This document shows, one piece after another, positions 2,810 through 58,286 of a stretch of DNA of 64,000 nt. Made by a program: the position numbers and the translations under genes. Source of the DNA: Propioniciclava sp. MC1595 (GTDB lineage: Bacteria; Actinomycetota; Actinomycetes; Propionibacteriales; Propionibacteriaceae); NCBI RefSeq assembly GCF_017569205.1, contig NZ_CP071870.1, positions 2,976,001 through 3,040,000 on the forward strand, given 5' to 3'. Numbering within the stretch: the first letter of the stretch is position 1; every line of letters begins with the position of its first letter. Below the pieces are notes generated by a model. That model was not told the origin of the DNA. It ran no database searches and worked only from the letters and a program-made list of their open reading frames with translations.

Positions 2810-3538
2810 ATGACAGCGCCCGCGATCGAACACCTGCCCGACGACTTCACCCGCGTCCTCTGCGTGGTCGCGCACCCCGACGACATGGAGTACGGCGCCT
2901 CGGCGGCCGTCCACCACTGGACCAGCCGCGGCGTCGAGGTCGCCTACCTGCTGCTCACGTCCGGCGAGGCCGGCATGCAGTCACCGCCCGAGGTCGTCGG
3001 GCCGCTGCGCGCCCTCGAGCAGAAGGACGCCTGCGCCGCGGTCGGCGTCGACAAGCTGACCATCCTCGACCACCCCGACGGGATGCTGGAACCCACGCTC
3101 GGGCTGCGCCGCGACATCGCCCGGGTGATCCGGCAGTTCCGGCCCGACGTGGTCGTCACCGGCAGCTGGGAGGTCGAGGCACCCTGGGGCCTCAACCAGG
3201 CCGACCACCGCGCCGCGGGGCTCGCCACGCTGGACGCCTGCCGCGACGCCGACAACACGTGGGTGTTCCCCGAGCTGGCCACCGACGAGGGGCTGCCGAA
3301 GTGGGGGCCCACCTGGCTGCTGGTCCACGGCTCCGACCGCCCCACGCACGGCGTCGGGCTGGCGGAGGCCGACGTGGCCGCCGCCGTGGCGTCCCTGGGT
3401 GCCCACCGGGCCTACCTCGCGGACCTGCCCGAACACCCGAAGCCGGTCGAGTTCATCCCCGAGATGCTGCAGGGCCAGGGTCGCGCGCTCGGCACCGCGC
3501 ACGCCGTGCTGTTCCGCGGGTACCGGCTGCGCGGCTGA
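2810..3538 (+). CDS. PIG-L family deacetylase (MshB/Mca-like)
   Basis: A 242-residue LmbE/PIG-L family zinc hydrolase. The signature AHPDDMEYG (residues about 22-30) supplies the metal-binding His and Asp, and a later NQADHRAAG block supplies the third metal ligand. In actinobacteria such enzymes deacetylate GlcNAc-inositol in mycothiol synthesis (MshB) or cleave mycothiol S-conjugates (Mca). The protein is shorter than typical MshB/Mca (about 290), so an exact assignment is not safe. The convergent NUDIX gene ends 3 nt beyond the stop. A leaderless start at ATG 2810 is likely. Confidence 0.85.
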   Translation: MTAPAIEHLPDDFTRVLCVVAHPDDMEYGASAAVHHWTSRGVEVAYLLLTSGEAGMQSPPEVVGPLRALEQKDACAAVGVDKLTILDHPDGMLEPTLGLRRDIARVIRQFRPDVVVTGSWEVEAPWGLNQADHRAAGLATLDACRDADNTWVFPELATDEGLPKWGPTWLLVHGSDRPTHGVGLAEADVAAAVASLGAHRAYLADLPEHPKPVEFIPEMLQGQGRALGTAHAVLFRGYRLRG

Positions 3539-3541
3539 CCC

Positions 3542-4036
3542 CTAGGCCGGCGGCAGCGGGCCGAGGCCGCACTCCGGGGCGTCCGCGATGAGGACGCCCA
3601 TGGCCCGGGCGTGGTCGTCGTCCAGCTCGGGCAGCGCGTCGGCGGGGAAGAAGGCCGCCTCGGTGTTCTCCCCGTCGGCCGGGTGCGGCTCGCCCGAGAC
3701 CCATCGGCAGCGGAAGGTGTGGTTGATGTACTGCGTCTGGTCACCGTTGTCGTAGGTGCGCATGTCGGTGACGTCCTGCCAGACGAGGCGCTCGACCTCG
3801 ACCACGACGCCCGCCTCCTCCAGCGCCTCGCGCGCCGCCGCCTCGTGCGGGTGCTCACCCGGGTCGACGATGCCGGTGACGACCGACCAGCCGCCCGTGT
3901 CGGCGCGGCGCACGAGCAGCCACTCGACGGTGCCGTCGGGGCGGGTGCGGTGGATGCCGGCGGTCGATCCCGACAGCCAGAGCGGGGTGGTGCCGACGTG
4001 GCGGCGCAGGTGCAGGATGAAGTCGGGCGTGGCCAT
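3542..4036 (-). CDS. NUDIX hydrolase
   Basis: A 164-residue NUDIX pyrophosphohydrolase. The Nudix box is complete at about residues 46-68: a Gly, Glu five residues later, then REALEEAG. N-terminal strands carry STAGIHR. The family hydrolyses nucleoside-diphosphate-linked substrates with Mg2+; the substrate here cannot be assigned. AGGGAGG lies 6 nt before the ATG. It is the last gene before the tRNA-Thr and is convergent with the PIG-L gene. Confidence 0.88.
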   Translation of the reverse strand: MATPDFILHLRRHVGTTPLWLSGSTAGIHRTRPDGTVEWLLVRRADTGGWSVVTGIVDPGEHPHEAAAREALEEAGVVVEVERLVWQDVTDMRTYDNGDQTQYINHTFRCRWVSGEPHPADGENTEAAFFPADALPELDDDHARAMGVLIADAPECGLGPLPPA

Positions 4037-48463: not shown

Positions 48464-51601
<3,138 letters not shown>

Positions 51602-51865
51602 GTGGTCCCTCTTCGTCTCGTCCCGTTGGCTGAGCCTGTCGAAGCTCCAGCCTGTCGAAGCCGAAGGGACGAGGCGAACCCCGCGGTACCACCCTTCTTG
51701 GGTCGTCGACTCTCAGTTGCCTGAGCTTGTCGCTGCCTGAGCTTGTCGAAGGCCCCACTCTTGCTCGCCGCGGCCGGTTCTAGTGAGGCCTCCGCTCGTG
51801 GTTGAGCTTCGAGACCCGTTCTTCCGGCAGCTCCGGGGTGATGGCCCCATCGACGCCGTGCGACG
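51602..51865 (-). promoter_or_regulatory. T-box leader of ileS
   Basis: On the minus strand the T-box sequence GGGTGGTACCGCGGGG lies at 51694-51679. A short Stem I near the 5' end has GGGG-CCATCA-CCCC (51848-51835) with an ATC isoleucine specifier at 51842-51840. An 8-bp stem, CTCGTCCC/GGGACGAG, follows the T-box and ends just before the ribosome site AGAGGGA, so control is probably at translation, as in other actinobacterial ileS genes. The -10 TACACT (51877-51872) predicts an RNA start near 51865. Confidence 0.88.
51629..51752. repeat. Four copies of a CCTGAGCYTGTCGAAG-type repeat inside the T-box leader
   Basis: On the plus strand CTGAGCCTGTCGAAG (about 51629), CCAGCCTGTCGAAG (about 51648), CCTGAGCTTGTCG (about 51720) and CCTGAGCTTGTCGAAG (about 51737) occur. 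Two lie between the T-box and the ribosome site and two lie upstream of the T-box. This is a dispersed short repeat, not part of the T-box consensus. Confidence 0.65.
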
Positions 51866-51903
51866 CGCGTCAGTGTACATGGGTGCGCTGGCAGGATGGT
51901 CGC

Positions 51904-52077
51904 GTGGACCTCCTGCTCTGGGCACTGCTCACCATCGGCGCGCTGGTCGTGGTCGGGTCGTACTTCCTGGTGCGCAAGCTGCCCCGCGACATCCGCCCGG
52001 TGGCCATCGTGCCGCTGGTGGTGGTGTTCGTCGGGTTCATCATCGGCGCGCTCGCGCTGGCGGGGGTGTTCGGCTGA
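51904..52077 (+). CDS. Small two-helix membrane protein
   Basis: A 57-residue protein. A membrane helix (VDLLLWALLTIGALVVVGSY) is followed by a basic loop, VRKLPRDIRP, and a second helix (VAIVPLVVVFVGFIIGALAL). No family is recognised. GTG 51904 is chosen because the first helix begins there; a longer frame from 51802 runs antisense to the ileS leader and is polar. CAGGAT ends 6 nt before the GTG, close to the leaderless pattern. It is divergent from ileS. Confidence 0.6.
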   Translation: MDLLLWALLTIGALVVVGSYFLVRKLPRDIRPVAIVPLVVVFVGFIIGALALAGVFG

Positions 52078-52104
52078 CGATCGAGGCGGCCGCGTGCCCG
52101 AGGC

Positions 52105-52143
52105 GTCCGCCGTTTGCGTCACGCCCTTGGGGTGCCGCGGCAC
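52105..52143 (+). repeat. Left 64-nt terminal repeat of the nuclease cassette, first part
   Basis: It begins GTCCGCCGTTTGCGTCACGC, then 8 variable nt, then TGCCGCGGC. The rest of this repeat is displaced to 54823-54842 by the IS1634-family insertion; with the TCAGG target site it totals 64 nt. The inverted partner is at 57238-57301, 73% identical over 64 positions, with three perfectly conserved blocks. Confidence 0.75.
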
Positions 52144-52613
52144 TCAGGCCTGAGTTGGGTCAAGCGGCTTAGTGCCTTGAGCTGGCTTGTTTGAGGTCGT
52201 CAAGGACGGCCTGCTCGTCGTCGCCGGGGGCTGGTGGCAGGGTCTGGATAGCGCCGTTGGCCTGGATCGTTGCTGAACGCAGCGGACGGAGTTGGCGCAG
52301 GACTCGACGTAGCGACAGGCCGGTCCGGTCCTGGACGGTGCGGCCGATGGCTAGGGCGGTGAACACGATGGTCAGGTGCGCCTCGATGGAGTCGCGTCGT
52401 CTGGCGAACAGTGGGCGGGCCCTCAGGTCACTCTTGGACATCCTGAAGGAGTGCTCCACGTGCCACAGGTCGGCATAGGAGCTGATCACCTCGGCAGCGG
52501 GCAGCACCGTGGCCGGGATGTTGGTGACCAGGCCTTTGAGTCCTGCCAACCGCCGGGCTCGGGCCAGCGCGGCTTCGTCCAGGACCAGTCCGTCGGTCTG
52601 TGTCTTGACGAAC

Positions 52614-53493
52614 CTAGGGCGTGTCGCGTAACTGGTCTCGTAGGCAGATGATGGTGCTGGCCAGGACGAGGCCGGCGCGGTAGTTGCGAGCGAGTTTGTC
52701 GTAGCGGGTGGCGATGGCGCGGAACTCCTTGATCCGGTTGAAGAAGCGTTCCACCACGTTCCTGCCCTTGTAGATGGTGGGATCGAAGGCAGGTGGGCGA
52801 CCGCCGCGGCTGCCCTTGGCCTTGCGACGGGCGATCTGGTCGGAGCGTTCGGGGATGGTCACCTTGATCCTTCGCCGCCGGAGCTCGGTTCGGGTCGAGG
52901 GATGGGAGTAGGCCTTGTCCGCGACCACCCGGACAACCCGGTGAGGGGCAAGATCGATCACATCCAACAGGCGGGGGTTCTCACCGGCCTGACCCGGGGT
53001 GACCACCAGCGAGCACAGGTGACCGGAGGCGTCGACCAGGGCGTGGGACTTCGTCGTCCACCCGCCACGGGAGTGCCCCAAGGCGTGATCAGCTGGTTCG
53101 GCCCGAGGATTCTTGTAGTTCGGTGGATCCCCCTTTTCGGGCGCCGGCAGCGTGCTTGTGGGCCCGCACGATCGTGCCGTCCACCACCGCGACCAGACCT
53201 TCTGCCTCCGGTGAACCGGCGATGGCGGTGAGGATCTTGTCCCAGGTACCGTCCTGGGCCCACGCGTTGAAGCGGCGCCACAAGCTCGACCACGATCCGA
53301 ACTCGGCCGGCACGTCCCGCCACGGCGACCCCGTCCGCAACCGCCAACAGATGCCCTCCACCGTCCGCCGGTGGTCATTCCACGGACGGCCGCCCTTCGC
53401 GCCCCCACGCGGCATCAACGGCTCAATCCGCGCCCACATCTCGTCACTGAACTGAGGACTCCTGGTCACAAAGACAACCCTGACCCAAACCAC
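52614..53493 (-). CDS. IS5-family transposase, two frames joined by ribosomal frameshift
   Basis: Frame A (53493-53089, 134 residues) has SDEMWARIEPLMPR and VVDGTIVRAHKHAAG with the first catalytic Asp. Frame B begins upstream of the junction and runs to 52614, with SRGGWTTKSHALVDASG, VVADKAYSHP (second Asp) and NVVERFFNRIKEFRAIATRY (Glu). The switch point is A4G5 on the minus strand (53137-53129), needing +1 (or -2) slippage. The TAG stop is completed by the target-site TA, outside the element itself. The transposase looks intact. Confidence 0.85.
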
Positions 53494-53517
53494 CCAAATC
53501 AGTTACGCGACACGCCC
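52617..53517 (-). mobile_element. IS5-family (IS427-type) insertion sequence
   Basis: 901 bp with perfect 18-bp ends, GGGCGTGTCGCGTAACTG. The target duplication is TA (52615-52616 and 53518-53519), or CTAG if the ends are counted one base shorter. Excision restores the IS1634 transposase frame, so it inserted after that element. Confidence 0.9.
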
Positions 53518-54822
53518 TAGGCGTCCGGGCTGGTTTGTCCCCCTCGATCGCTGCCCGGGCCCGGTTCTCCTGGGCGGTGAGGGTCTTGTTGTCCCGGGCG
53601 AACCGCTTGGCCGAGTAGGACCACACCGCCCGCCACGAGTTGCGGTGCTGCTCGGGGTCCCAGACCGGCTCGCGACGCTTGGCGGTGTCGTTGTCGGTGT
53701 TCTTGCCGACCTTGGGGGTCAGGGTGTCGATGACCTGGCCGTCGGTGAACACATCCCCGTGCCAGCGGAAGTGGGAGGCCAGGTCGATCGGGGCCTTGGT
53801 GGTCTTGGACCCGACGATGAAGGTGTGCCCGGCCTGATCCAGGGCCTTCAAATTGGCAGCCGACAGCATCCCGGCGTCAGCGACCACGACCAAGTCCTCG
53901 ATCTCGTGCCGGGCGGCGAAGGCCTCGATGATCGGCACGATCGTGTGCGTCTCGGCCTTGTTGCCCTCCCAGCACCCGATCTCCAACGGGAAACCGTGCC
54001 GGTCGACCAGCAGACCGACGATGATCTGCGGGTCGACCCGGCGTTCCTTGGAGTAGCCGACCTTGCGCAGGGCATCTTCCTCAGCGGCTTCGAAGTGCAG
54101 CGTGGTCACGTCGTACAGGCACAACGACACATCCCCGCTGGCCCGGGCCTGCTCGAAGCACAGTTTGGCGACCTGGTCGCGGTAGGCCCCGTCCTGGCAT
54201 CGGCCCAACGTGCGCTTGCGCGTCGACAGGCTGGCCGCGGTCCGACCCAGGTCTGCCAGCACCCGGTCCACGTCCAGCAGGCTGGTCGGCTCCACCACCC
54301 GCGCGATGACCAGGTCGCGGAACACCTCATCGTCCAGGACGTCGAAACCCAGGTCGGTGTACACCCGGCCAACGCCTCATACAGCAACGCCGAGGACGTT
54401 CGCAGCACACGAGGCGCGGCCACCACCGGGCGCCGCACCGGGCCCTTGACCTGCTCCCCGAACAGCGTCTCGGCCGGGGCCGGCACCATCGCGGCCCAAG
54501 GAACTGGCAGCGACAGCCCCAGATCCAACTGCCCCTGGGCATCGTCCTGGAGCAGCTTGCTGGCCTGGGCCATCAGCAGCCCAAGCTCGGCCTCATCGTG
54601 CGCCGACCCCACGTGCCGCACGATGCGACGTCGACCACCCACCGACTCAGCGATCTGCACCGCGGTCGCCCCCGAGGCCGTCCGCACCCGCCGAATCCAC
54701 GCCATGCCCCGATCCTAGAGTCCCGCTTAGTGCCTAAACGAAGCACCAAGCCACGGCATCACCGCAAGTCACGGCCCCTACCGATGCAAGAATCGCCGAA
54801 CGGTGACCCAACTCAGGTCAGG

Positions 54823-54842
54823 CGGCGTGATCCTCCTCGCGG
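54823..54842 (+). repeat. Left 64-nt terminal repeat of the nuclease cassette, second part
   Basis: The displaced end of the left repeat: two spacer bases, GCGTGATCC (54825-54833), a variable hexamer and CGG. Its last base abuts the TGA stop of the DUF559 gene at 54843. Confidence 0.7.
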
Positions 54843-55454
54843 TCAGCCCGCCGCACCCGCCCGTGGCTGCTCGTGGATGGCCCGCGCGACCTGGTCGAGG
54901 AACTTGTCGGGGCACACCCGCAGTCCGAGGACGGGAATCTGGAAGCTCCGCATCGCGCGGTTGCCGAGGGCCAGGTCGTTGAACCGGAGGGCGTCATCGA
55001 TCCCCGCCGTGCCCTGGAAGTGCTGGGCGCCCTGGATCTCGACGTGCAGGTTGAACTTGTCCCAGAAGACATCGAGGTACACGCGGCCGTGCGTGCCCGA
55101 TCGCAGGACCTGGCGCGACGGCTCAGGCAGCCCCCGACGTCGACACAGCGCAGCGAAGTCGAGTTCCGACAGTGACTGCGCCCCGTTGCAGACGTCGGCG
55201 ATGACGCCGTCGAGCACGGATCGCCGATGGGCGTACCCGGTGCGCTCCCAGCGGGCGAGCACGGCCGTGGGGTGGACGAGTCGTTGTTGCACCGCCATGG
55301 CCACGATCGTCGCCGCCTGCCGATCGGTGGACGCCCACTGCGCGGCCCGCACGACGGCCAGGTCGGCCCGTGTCCGGCGCAGGCCGATCTCCACAAAGTC
55401 GCCTATGTCGCGCTGGGCTGCGGGATGGAATCCGGACCGCTTGATATTCATGTT

Positions 55455-56339
55455 TCAGGCTGCCTTGTTGGTTTCGTACCAGTCCTGCTCTGCTTCGTTC
55501 GGGGTACGATATTGAAGCGCGGAATGCAACCGTTTCTGATTGTAACGCAACTCGATGTAGCGTGCAATATCCCGGATAGCATGCCGCCGAGTCGGATACA
55601 CGGTCCGATGAACCCGCTCCACTTTCAAGGTCGCATTGAACGACTCAGCCCACGCATTGTCATAGCAGATCCCAGTCCGTCCGACCGACCGAACAATCCC
55701 AGCCGCGCGCGTGAACTCGGCAAACTCGGCCGACATGTATTGAGTCCCGCGATCCGAATGGAAAATCGTCTCCCCGCTGCGGACATGGCCATTACTGATC
55801 GCCATGGCCAGGGCGTCGGTGACCAGCTCGGTTCGCATGTGCTCGGCCATCGCGTACCCGACGACCTTCTTCGTGCAGCAGTCCAGCACGGTGGCCAGAT
55901 ACACCCACCCCTGCCAGGTCGGAATGTAGGTGATGTCGCCGACCAGCTTGAGCCCGGGCTCGTCGGCGGTGAAGTCCCTGTTGACCAGATCCGGCAGATC
56001 CTTCGCGTCAGCCGGGATCGTGGTCCTGGGCCCGCTGCGGCGCGGCTGACAAGCCACCAAGCCACGCTCGGCCATGATCGCACGCACCGTCTGCGGGTCA
56101 CACGGCCTGCCTGCCCGCACCAAGGCGGCATGGATCCGTCGGTAGCCGTAGGTGGCGTCGGAGTCGGCGAACAGGACCTCGATGATGTCGCCGAGCTCGT
56201 CGCGCCACCGCTGGGTCACCGAGACCGGCCGGTTGAGCCACTCGTAGTAGCCGGCCCGCGACACCCTCGCCCACCGACACATGCTCCGGATCGAGTAGTT
56301 GCCTTCTTCGCTGTTGATGAACGCGTACTTCGCGGTCAC
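55455..56339 (-). CDS. IS3-family transposase OrfB
   Basis: A 294-residue DDE integrase-fold transposase. HTH_21 helices (YSIRSMCRWARVSRAGYYEW) precede the core. The catalytic residues are in LVGDITYIPTWQGW, IFHSDRGTQYMS and NAWAESFNATLKVE. The tail LRYNQKRLHSALQYRTPNEA is typical. Its start overlaps the OrfA stop by 4 nt, so the OrfAB fusion would arise by frameshifting or reinitiation. It appears complete. Confidence 0.92.
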   Translation of the reverse strand: MTAKYAFINSEEGNYSIRSMCRWARVSRAGYYEWLNRPVSVTQRWRDELGDIIEVLFADSDATYGYRRIHAALVRAGRPCDPQTVRAIMAERGLVACQPRRSGPRTTIPADAKDLPDLVNRDFTADEPGLKLVGDITYIPTWQGWVYLATVLDCCTKKVVGYAMAEHMRTELVTDALAMAISNGHVRSGETIFHSDRGTQYMSAEFAEFTRAAGIVRSVGRTGICYDNAWAESFNATLKVERVHRTVYPTRRHAIRDIARYIELRYNQKRLHSALQYRTPNEAEQDWYETNKAA

Positions 56340-56620
56340 CGGAACTCTTTGGCGAAGAAGGCCGCCGCTTTTCCCAGGAACTCCCGCTCGGCCTTCAACT
56401 CGCGGACCTCTTTACGCAACCGTGCCAGTTCAGCACGCTCCGGTTCGCTGATCTCCGGTAACTCATCCGGGTGGTCCCGCCGATACGCATTCACCCAATT
56501 CCTGAGTGTTTCCGAGCCGATACCATGATCACGCGCGACCTCGGCAACAGTCCGCGACGACTCAATCACCGCACGAACCGCCTCCGCCTTGAATTCCGGG
56601 CTGAACTTCTTCCGGGTCAT
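56336..56620 (-). CDS. IS3-family transposase OrfA
   Basis: 94 residues. The helix-turn-helix KKFSPEFKAEAVRAVIESSR and EVARDHGIGSETLRNWVNAY is followed by a leucine-zipper-like coil, ELARLRKEVRELKAEREFLG. It binds the element ends. It is directly upstream of OrfB with a 4-nt overlap. Confidence 0.92.
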   Translation of the reverse strand: MTRKKFSPEFKAEAVRAVIESSRTVAEVARDHGIGSETLRNWVNAYRRDHPDELPEISEPERAELARLRKEVRELKAEREFLGKAAAFFAKEFR

Positions 56621-57237
56621 TCGATCCCTTCCATTTCTCCCACGGATTCTACCGGTGGGGGCTCTTGGTCCGGAAACAATCCCTCACCTCACGCACTTGG
56701 TGGTGCCTGACGCCGGCGATCGCGCGCACCCGGCGGTTGTGGGCGACGGTGACGTCGAGGAGTTCCTCGTTCCAGTTCTTCAACCCCCAGGCGAACAGCG
56801 ACGTCACACCGTCGAGCACGGCACTGGCCCCCGATTCCCACAGTGCCCGCCACCACAGCCCCCGCCCGGTGGGTGCATCGCTGGTGATCGACACCGTGTG
56901 CTTGCCCGCCGGGTGCCACAGGCCCCCCTCGATCGCGCTGCGCACCTGGCCGCGCGTGAGAGCGGCCCGATGGAGCATCGCGTACGTGACGACGCCATCG
57001 TGCGGGGCGGCCAACCGGGTCGCCAACTCGTGGCGACGCCGTGTCTCGATCCGGGCGGCGGCCGCTCGCTCGGCGCGTGTCATGGGAGATGTGATGACCC
57101 TCGATTCCATGCTGGGATCATCGGCAGTTGGCGGTGATTCCCGTCACCGAATCCTCCCCGTCCACAGGGCCAATTCGGAGGAGGAAAGTTGTCCACACGT
57201 GGCATGTCCTGCTGGCGGCGCCCCGCGCCCGAGGCGT

Positions 57238-57301
57238 CCGTGGATTGGATCACGCCAGACTCGCGCCGCGGCACACAGGGAGCGTGACGCAAACGGCGGA
57301 C
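57238..57301 (-). repeat. Right 64-nt terminal repeat of the nuclease cassette
   Basis: Read on the minus strand it begins GTCCGCCGTTTGCGTCACGC, then 8 nt, TGCCGCGGC, 9 nt, GCGTGATCC, 6 nt and CGG. Block order and spacer lengths equal those of the left repeat. TCACGC and GCGTGA are complementary around the near-palindromic GCCGCGGC centre. It starts 19 nt after the stop of the quinone-oxidoreductase-like gene. Confidence 0.75.
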
Positions 57302-57320
57302 AACCCTCCGGGGCCCGCGA

Positions 57321-58286
57321 TCAGGGGGTCAGCACGACCTTGCCCAGCACCTCGCCCGCCCCCAGCGCCGCCATCGCGGCCGGCAACGCGTCGAAACCCA
57401 CCACCCGGTCGATCGGCGGTCGCATGCCGGTGCGCTCCATCAGAGACAGGACGCCCTCCAGTTCGGAGCGCGTGCCCATGGTCGAACCGATCACCCGCAA
57501 CTGGAGGAAGAACACGCGGTTCAGGTCGGCCGGCGGGTTCGGACCCGACGTCGCCCCGCACACCACGACCGTCCCGCCGGGGCGCAGCGACTTCAGCGAG
57601 TGCGACCACGTCGCCTCGCCGACCGTCTCGACGACGAGGTCGACCCGTTCGGGCAGCCGCGCACCCGGCTCGAACACCTCATCGGCCCCCAGGGCCAACC
57701 CGAACTCGCGCTTGGCCTCGGAGCGCGCCGTCGCCCACACCCGGTGCCCGAGGGCTTTCGCGACCTGGATCGCCGCCGACGCCACCCCACCCGAGGTGCC
57801 CTGGACCAGCACGGTGCCCGGCTTCCACAGCCCCGAGTCGCGGGTGAGCATCCGGAACGCGGTCAGGTAGGCGGTCGGCACGCAGGCGGCCTCCTCCCAC
57901 GACAGCCCCGCGGGCTTGTCGACGAGGTTCGCCTCGGGAACCGCAACCCACTCTGCGAACGTGCCTTGGTGCTGCTCCGACAGCAAGGAACGACGCGGGT
58001 CGAGGGTCTCATCACCCGACCATCCGGCCGACGAGATCACCGCGTGCACCAGCACCTCGCGTCCGTCGGCGGTGGTGCCCACGGCGTCCGTACCCAGGAT
58101 CATCGGCATGCGCTCGGCCGGCAGCCCCACCCCCCGCAGCGACCACACGTCGTGGTGGTTCACCGACGCCGCACGCACCCGCACGTTCACCCAGCCGTCA
58201 CCGGGAGTCGGGTCGGGCCGCTCCCCCACCACGAGTGCGGCGAGGGGATCGGCCGGATTGGCAGCTTCGACAAAGGCGGCGCGCAT
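57321..58286 (-). CDS. Zinc-independent medium-chain dehydrogenase / quinone oxidoreductase-like
   Basis: A 321-residue MDR-family protein. The N-terminal GroES-like domain has VRAASVNHHDVWSLRGVG and MILGTDAVGTTADGREV. The Rossmann part has VLVQGTSGGVASAAIQVAKA near residue 165, then VDLVVETVGEATWSHSLKSL. The usual zinc Cys is absent (Asn-His-His-Asp-Val), so it is probably of the quinone-oxidoreductase or enoyl-reductase type using NADPH. ATG 58286 is chosen: TACGCT (58298-58293) ends 6 nt before it, a leaderless start. Confidence 0.85.
   Translation of the reverse strand: MRAAFVEAANPADPLAALVVGERPDPTPGDGWVNVRVRAASVNHHDVWSLRGVGLPAERMPMILGTDAVGTTADGREVLVHAVISSAGWSGDETLDPRRSLLSEQHQGTFAEWVAVPEANLVDKPAGLSWEEAACVPTAYLTAFRMLTRDSGLWKPGTVLVQGTSGGVASAAIQVAKALGHRVWATARSEAKREFGLALGADEVFEPGARLPERVDLVVETVGEATWSHSLKSLRPGGTVVVCGATSGPNPPADLNRVFFLQLRVIGSTMGTRSELEGVLSLMERTGMRPPIDRVVGFDALPAAMAALGAGEVLGKVVLTP

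Follow-up and report, generated by a model that had tools for sequence, protein, structure and literature searches.

Repetitive extragenic palindromes (REPs) are located at the 3' ends of bacterial genes, and to our knowledge the Y1 REP-associated tyrosine transposases (RAYTs) are the one enzyme class known to be tied to bacterial palindromic repeats. According to the available excerpts of PMC3116915, PMC3733652 and PMC8266576, RAYT genes are flanked by REPs and are inherited largely vertically, and REPs are dispersed outside genes. Imperfect palindromes are also placed on either side of IS608, an element of the IS200/IS605 group, in the accessible portion of PMC3116915. The regulator AbiEi is described in an extract of PMC3985639 as binding an inverted repeat whose halves measure 23 bp each, with strong conservation of 11 outer bp, and Caulobacter VsrA, a DUF559 nuclease of the PD-(D/E)XK superfamily, was reported in part of PMC12907096 to cause a DNA damage response. 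Here, a stretch of 64,000 nt of Propioniciclava sp. MC1595 (hereafter the window; positions 2976001-3040000 of a one-contig genome of 3.43 Mb) was analyzed, in which an interrupted gene encoding a DUF559-type protein lies between two inverted repeats.

This unit is probably a decayed copy of a two-part system occurring across the phylum, which consists of an AbiEi-DUF559 protein and a private, REP-like repeat family. The protein is predicted to carry a DNA-binding winged helix joined to a nuclease of the Vsr-like PD-(D/E)XK type. As read from the sequences, the system is characterized by repeats paired around the gene, by the generality of this pairing and by covarying arms; some genomes contain dispersed solo copies, the two flanking copies change jointly, and the protein is under purifying selection.

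Matching repeats flank many AbiEi-DUF559 genes

Three sets of genes, which differ in ascertainment, were surveyed in genomes represented by one per species. Set 1 comprised all 38 PF04480 hits in the 13 genomes of the window's genus; set 2, the relatives that matched the C-terminal piece of the window gene best, of which 20 of 21 were used (genome G087 was left out); and the phylum set, 40 loci hand-picked from the hit list for open frames of 282-378 aa and enough surrounding contig. The window genome itself holds five other DUF559 genes detected by PF04480, and two closer relatives of the window gene detected by protein search. For each gene, the stretch upstream was compared with the stretch downstream in both orientations, using a cut-off score of 44 that was fixed on set 1, where the random maximum was 43, and applied unchanged to the phylum set. 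Rows with short flanks were dropped (L076, L090 and L146 from sets 1 and 2; L286 and L296 from the phylum set), and the 93 testable genes do not include the window's own interrupted gene.

Scores of at least 44 were obtained for 10 of 36 genes in set 1, 12 of 19 in set 2 and 17 of 38 in the phylum set. Random positions reached this score in 0 of 1518 cases in the loci of the genus and in 3 of 445 in the phylum loci, all three from one place in L297. Altogether, matching repeats were present at both ends of 39 of 93 AbiEi-DUF559 genes versus 3 of 1963 random positions (Fisher 5e-53, a nominal value since random positions overlap). Compared with other genes of similar length in the same loci, 22 of 55 nuclease genes from sets 1 and 2 were flanked by a pair versus 0 of 111 (9e-13). 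When the upstream flank of one gene was aligned with the downstream flank of another, only 4 of 2970 pairs reached 44, and the one that was traced (L096/L095) corresponded to a neighboring gene. Among the controls, a strong repeat pair was seen only at the L297 place, in genome G207, where it is direct and scores up to 104; this place lies about 2.5 kb from a DUF559 gene.

The repeats lie closely around the gene. The downstream copy starts a median of 4 nt from the stop codon, within -30 to +60 in 37 of 39 cases, and the upstream copy ends a median of 996 nt before the stop. Their sequences differ from gene to gene, and the two flanks align in direct as well as inverted orientation. Self-palindromicity at p<=0.005 was found for 21 of the 39 repeats, and six chosen repeats folded as near-perfect hairpins (z -7.8 to -13.7). 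No Rfam matches were found in six loci. The proportion of 39 in 93 is likely an underestimate, because palindromes that are one-sided, diverged or split can be seen by eye at several genes scoring below 44 (L081, L102, L148, L150 and L152-L154, all outside every statistic). Gene context showed no clear difference between paired and unpaired genes.

Inspection of individual loci provided further cases: inverted arms of 121 nt (87%) surround the L035 gene, a hairpin precedes the L034 gene with further copies nearby, and palindromes are found on both sides of the L036 gene by reading of the sequence. In a second clade, a motif with CACTCGA arms was present at 5 of 8 clade genes versus 1 of 50 others, with 2 matches in the other 655 kb of the loci; this comparison is supportive, the motif having been picked after the sequences had been seen. 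As a specificity control, short DUF559 proteins were subjected to the same test at seven loci; one scored 45-46 and the others at most 28, a result given no weight because some open reading frames (ORFs) may have been called in the wrong frame.

Similarity between the flanks of homologous genes at different loci was also considered as a sign of shared palindromes and was dropped: 9 of 10 inspected pairs matched in N-terminal coding sequence, and in the remaining, syntenic pair the match lay in the neighboring gene. Two loci carry repeats of other appearance. In L279 (G153), inverted arms of about 236 nt flank the DUF559 gene (gene-oriented positions 1904-2139 and 3105-3343) and look like tandem repeat units rather than plain palindromes. 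In L150:1-3818 (G026), repeated palindromes of the TTCGAGGTGAT...ATCACCTCGA type lie upstream of the nuclease gene and one lies downstream, an arrangement resembling a repeat cluster.

A nuclease clade and its 54-nt palindromes

The relation between gene and repeat was most apparent in another genus, g18, where one clade of nuclease genes is associated with a palindrome of 54 nt, CCGACTTGTCAG-N30-CTGACAA(C/G)TCGG, having fixed outer arms and covarying inner arms. A search with the protein of genome G127 (L152:7110-8096) retrieved seven clade genes (at least 53% identity; that of G104 in two pieces) in 6 of 20 genomes, and all seven are flanked by two copies of the palindrome with at most two mismatches. 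The exact pattern was searched in 11 genomes and occurred at 42 places in G127, 16 in G139, 2 in G104 and 1 each in G029 and G051, with none in the six others; a reversed control pattern gave 0 matches in the same 11 genomes. By this exact pattern, palindromes were present in 4 of 4 genomes with a clade gene versus 1 of 7 without (Fisher 0.015). With BLAST rows added, palindromes were found, among the matches listed, in 6 of 6 gene-bearing versus 2 of 14 gene-free genomes (7e-4).

Pairing between the arms was analyzed in 41 of the 42 G127 copies. Of the cells in 24 pairs, 86.7% formed standard pairs versus 74.7% in shuffles, and 137 cells were changed on both sides of a pair versus 65.7 in shuffles (0 of 500 as high), both being cell-based measures, which relatedness can raise. 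Sliding the partner by 1-3 columns lowered pairing to 27-41%. Since the outer arms are fixed by the search pattern, the inner arms alone constitute independent evidence.

The two copies flanking a gene resemble each other in the part that varies. Over the inner 30 nt, mean agreement between the two copies of the same clade gene was 0.80 (0.57 to 0.93; 7 genes), whereas copies of different clade genes agreed at 0.38 (n = 84, maximum 0.77); the outer arms agreed at 0.92 within genes and 0.93 between genes. Only 2 of 5040 left-right pairings were as good as the true one. In an orthologous pair from another clade (L142/L147), both copies differ between species in matching ways. Such joint change would be expected if sequence is copied between the flanks or if the unit as a whole inserts anew. 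Genome G152 contains two genes of the g18 clade (L303 and L314), whose flanking palindromes differ in their inner arms, together with numerous dispersed copies. Three solo copies in it, read at two places, have inner arms resembling those around the second gene, L314, which is a hint only.

These observations bear on the possibility that another enzyme, a RAYT or a second transposase, spreads the palindromes, and that DUF559 genes merely adjoin them or ride along. REPs are thought to be moved by RAYTs, according to sections of PMC3733652 and PMC8266576, and G051 and G131 hold a few palindromes without the cognate gene. Even so, in g18 the repeat tracks one nuclease clade and carries no fixed edge tag. 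The RAYT domain Y1_Tnp did not turn up in any of the 13 genomes of the window's genus, g18 not having been searched for it, yet a palindrome family with five places occurs in the window's genus. Spread by another enzyme is regarded as very unlikely.

Solo copies and persistence of the gene

In G127, 40 of the 42 palindrome places are solo, away from the gene. Of these, 28 were examined, with the adjacent genes called as longest open frames: 16 lie between convergent, 11 between tandem and 1 between divergent genes, and 27 touch the 3' end of a gene. The edges of the 28 solos show no strongly fixed base (at most 0.42 bits), and no stretch of 4 T was seen up to 12 nt to the left or right of any of them. 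At the one junction checked, the solo copy L167 was absent in all 13 relatives that were readable there, the gap in G131 measuring 14 nt, and a fuzzy search of the loci L181-L209 revealed no copy. Dispersal is also seen in the window genome, where two of the five places of the L100 family flank the gene and the other three lie apart from it. An earlier note on this DNA had raised the matter of repeats away from DUF559 genes; in abundant families most copies are solo, as in three of the five places of the L100 family and in the 40 G127 places.

The position of the solos would fit a role as transcription terminators, or as insulators of a gene gained by horizontal transfer, given that they are hairpins at 3' ends and that 16 of 28 separate convergent genes. 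The lack of T runs speaks against this, as do the association of the g18 sequence with one nuclease clade and the absence of paired repeats from the control genes of the same loci (0/111), which leaves such a role barely plausible.

The gene itself moves rarely, because 13 homologous gene pairs hold the same locus in different species, and many such genes are old residents. Most copies in abundant families stand without the gene, so spread appears to concern chiefly the repeat and not the 1.3-kb unit.

The AbiEi-DUF559 protein

A structural model of the L143 protein (338 aa; predicted local distance difference test score, pLDDT, 92.6; predicted template modeling score, pTM, 0.83) was compared by Foldseek, which retrieved the AbiEi antitoxin 6y8q (E 8.7e-5) and Rv2827c (E 2.7e-3). 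Among 22 proteins, PADLOC AbiEi models matched 18, Pfam AbiEi_4 matched 6 and Pfam DUF559 matched 4; NCBIfam gave no match for any of the 22, and PHROGs none for three. Two proteins tried against plasmids gave no match, and one tried against phages gave one weak match. Residues E226, Q244, D257 and E268 (L143 numbering) are invariant in all 21 sequences that cover them, and the ratio of nonsynonymous to synonymous substitution rates (dN/dS) was 0.19-0.39 in nine pairs, some with saturated dS. As judged from these alignments, the protein is under purifying selection and keeps its putative nuclease residues.

Resemblance to AbiEi raises the possibility that the palindromes are autoregulatory operators, the protein repressing its own gene through the upstream copy while the nuclease has a different function, for example in repair or defence. 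AbiEi binds inverted repeats of such size in its own promoter, as described in an extract of PMC3985639, the N-terminal part is AbiEi-like in fold and in PADLOC matches, and upstream copies are often near the start codon. Autoregulation would leave unexplained the copy at the stop codon (37 of 39), the 40 solos of G127, and inner arms that vary yet remain largely paired, and we consider it unlikely.

The window unit

The window unit consists of the following parts:

52105..52143, plus strand: left repeat, piece 1 (outer 20-nt block and GC-rich center)
52144..54822, minus strand: IS1380-like insertion sequence inside the left repeat; outer bounds approximate, transposase domains found
52613-53521: IS5-like element nested in the IS1380-like one, with 22-nt inverted ends at 52613-52634 and 53500-53521
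54823..54842, plus strand: left repeat, piece 2, directly before the nuclease stop codon
54843..55450, minus strand: C-terminal part of the DUF559-type gene, encoding the nuclease domain, which retains the E, D and E-x-Q motif residues; without a Pfam match of its own
55451..56678, minus strand: IS3-like insertion sequence inside the nuclease gene; bounds read by eye
56679..57110, minus strand: N-terminal part of the DUF559-type gene, the AbiEi-like winged-helix region, severed by an insertion sequence; without a Pfam match of its own, domain call from relatives
57236..57301, minus strand: right repeat, inverted relative to the left one; imperfectly palindromic and situated upstream of the nuclease gene

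The family names IS1380 and IS5 are those that we presume to apply. The IS3-like element contains transposase domains, and its plasmid matches are annotated 'IS3 family transposase' (Streptomyces and Rhodococcus plasmids). The window copy is decayed, since both the left repeat and the nuclease gene are interrupted by insertion sequences. The IS5-like element (ends CCTAGGGCGTGTCGCGTAACTG) struck two DUF559 regions of the genome, the window unit at 52613-53521 and the L034 gene at about 3077-3986.

The earlier note had described two repeats of exactly 64 nt sharing blocks of 20, 9 and 9 nt, and had proposed a mobile unit, or one copied by gene conversion, that uses its own nuclease. The inverted pair is real: the left copy, with the insertion skipped, aligned with the reversed right copy at a score of 53, the maximum of 2986 random window pairs being 37, and the arms 52105-52141 and 57265-57301 (37 nt, 86% complementary) form the longest inverted pair listed for 51500-58000. 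The three blocks are likewise visible in the left/right alignment, but the right copy was counted as 66 nt (57236-57301), not 64. A feature overlooked there is the imperfect palindromy of the single repeats, whose outer 20-nt arms match at 15 of 20 positions, a value reached by 1.1% of random 80-mers. The search pattern suggested for the repeat yielded no second case, the window repeat being one of many private families. Its 20-mer occurs exactly only at the two repeat sites of the genome, with one further match at three mismatches. A scan of a wider collection of genome contigs gave one exact match, within a 395-aa ORF of a betaproteobacterial metagenome-assembled genome, which was dropped as a second case since its location inside an ORF makes it probably a chance match.

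The unit is neighbored by a 57-aa ORF without a Pfam match and by a zinc-binding dehydrogenase gene, which are convergent. At the same junction, relative G007 has about 25 nt between the two neighbor genes, with no nuclease gene and no repeat; in relatives G004 and G009 the place is taken by an unrelated gene, and no comparable pair of repeats is present. As to mobility, the earlier proposal is supported in part: repeats at both gene ends proved general and highly significant, and the comparison provided one fitting empty site (G007). On the other side stand the persistence of homologous genes at shared loci, many of them old residents, and the spread of the repeat rather than of the 1.3-kb unit. 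The proposal of gene conversion fits the concerted change of left and right copies.

Another explanation would be a classical transposable element of 1.1-1.4 kb, with the repeats as terminal inverted repeats, the nuclease as transposase and the solos as internally deleted copies. Gene and both repeats are missing as a unit in G007, and three related genes occupy three places of the window genome (the window, L142 and L143). This explanation was judged quite unlikely: in many families each end is itself palindromic, pairs are direct as well as inverted, the 28 solos lack a strongly conserved edge base and consist of one palindrome, not two ends, plasmid searches with two proteins gave no match, a phage search with one protein gave one weak match, and 13 gene pairs stay at shared loci.

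Elsewhere in the window, at 51630-51760, several repeats of the TGAGCCTGTCGAAG / CCTGAGCTTGTCGAAG type lie upstream of the ileS start, and similar inverted copies occur in intergenic gaps of the distant relatives L188, L190, L191 and L192. These look like another dispersed palindromic family.

Proposed mechanism

In the two-part system that we favor, the AbiEi-like N-terminal part would bind the conserved outer arms of the palindrome, a step suggested by the plan that g18 palindromes share with the AbiEi site as given in the extract of PMC3985639. The nuclease would then nick or cut at or near the palindrome, perhaps when it is extruded as a hairpin or cruciform, and repair would transfer the palindrome sequence to the partner copy or to another site, leading to REP-like spread and to concerted evolution. 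Because the inner arms stay largely paired while their sequence changes, a hairpin or cruciform stage may be involved, or one arm may be copied from its counterpart. The AbiEi-DUF559 protein would stand to its repeats as a RAYT stands to REPs.

A number of results weigh against this explanation. The pairing test was failed by 54 of the 93 genes, some with one-sided, diverged or split palindromes by eye and others with nothing, and 18 of the 39 repeats fall short of self-palindromicity at p<=0.005. The unit in the window illustrates the general pattern only weakly: its repeat fails a gapped self-complement test (68% of random 76-mers reach its score), folds no better than shuffles (z 0.08) and, like the L101 family, forms a flanking pair only, with no solos in the genome. 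In g18, palindromes without the cognate gene occur in G051 (one exact copy) and G131 (three, with 1-2 outer-arm changes). The covariation excess in the 41 G127 copies is confined to the cell-based measures: neither double-changed pairs (11 vs 11.2 shuffled; 456 of 500 shuffles as high) nor further pair types (27 vs 26.9; 297 of 500) exceed shuffles. Absence of a solo in relatives comes from a single junction, the search for Y1_Tnp was limited to the window's genus, and the 13 homologous gene pairs with matching far flanks (score at least 813) represent the same locus in different species. Matches of the nuclease part are weak and stand among unrelated ones, both for the L143 model (AbaSI 0.14, PvuRts1I 0.34, Vsr 2.7) and for the window nuclease domain alone (pLDDT 87.2; PvuRts1I E 0.04, AbaSI 0.1).

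More tentatively, AbiEi-DUF559 proteins may be a second, independent lineage of repeat-making enzymes, each binding its own palindrome through a regulator-type winged helix, cutting it by means of a Vsr-like nuclease and driving its copying to the partner and to new intergenic sites. If so, they would explain a good part of the repetitive extragenic DNA of the phylum together with its many orphan DUF559 genes, and would suggest an unrecognized way in which bacterial repeats arise and persist, by a different route to repeat spread. Through the phylum-wide link between nuclease and repeat, an abundant family of orphan nucleases acquires a role that can be tested, and the many pairs of protein and repeat found in nature lend themselves to the study of joint change of a nuclease and its site.

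Comparison with known systems

No link between DUF559 and palindromes was found in the open-access literature without preprints, among the matches listed. We regard the system as a kind of its own, since the enzyme that defines its nearest known counterpart was not found in the window's genus; on a stricter view it would be a variation on the REPtron idea.

In comparison with classical insertion sequences, the window unit presents inverted ends and one empty site, that of G007. Flanking imperfect palindromes are shared with the IS200/IS605 group as outlined in the accessible portion of PMC3116915, although the enzyme there is a Y1 transposase and here a putative PD-(D/E)XK nuclease. Unlike the proteins studied here, VsrA is discussed in terms of mismatch repair in the part of PMC12907096 consulted, whose main text does not contain the string 'palindrom'.

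To AbiEi, the regulator of the AbiE type IV toxin-antitoxin system, the likeness lies in the N-terminal fold (6y8q, E 8.7e-5; PADLOC 18/22) and in the site: each half of a g18 palindrome spans about 25 nt, of which the 12 outer bases are fixed, much the same plan as that of the AbiEi site in the extract of PMC3985639. The present proteins differ from AbiEi by the fused nuclease domain, and by palindromes that lie at either end of the gene and, in some genomes, at further places.

The REPtron is the closest counterpart. As in it, the AbiEi-DUF559 gene lies between its own palindromes (39 of 93 genes; 7 of 7 in the g18 clade), and dispersal is seen in some families, with 42 places in G127, 16 in G139 and 5 for one family of the window genome, two other families there being without it. 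The enzyme, by contrast, is an AbiEi-DUF559 nuclease and not a Y1 HUH tyrosine transposase, and the palindromes, of about 54 nt, have long stems and end in CCGA...TCGG, without a GTAG or CGTC end tag. Since Y1_Tnp is missing from the 13 genomes of the window's genus and the ends lack a GTAG tag, the system, as far as sequence comparison indicates, appears to work like a REPtron but not to be one.

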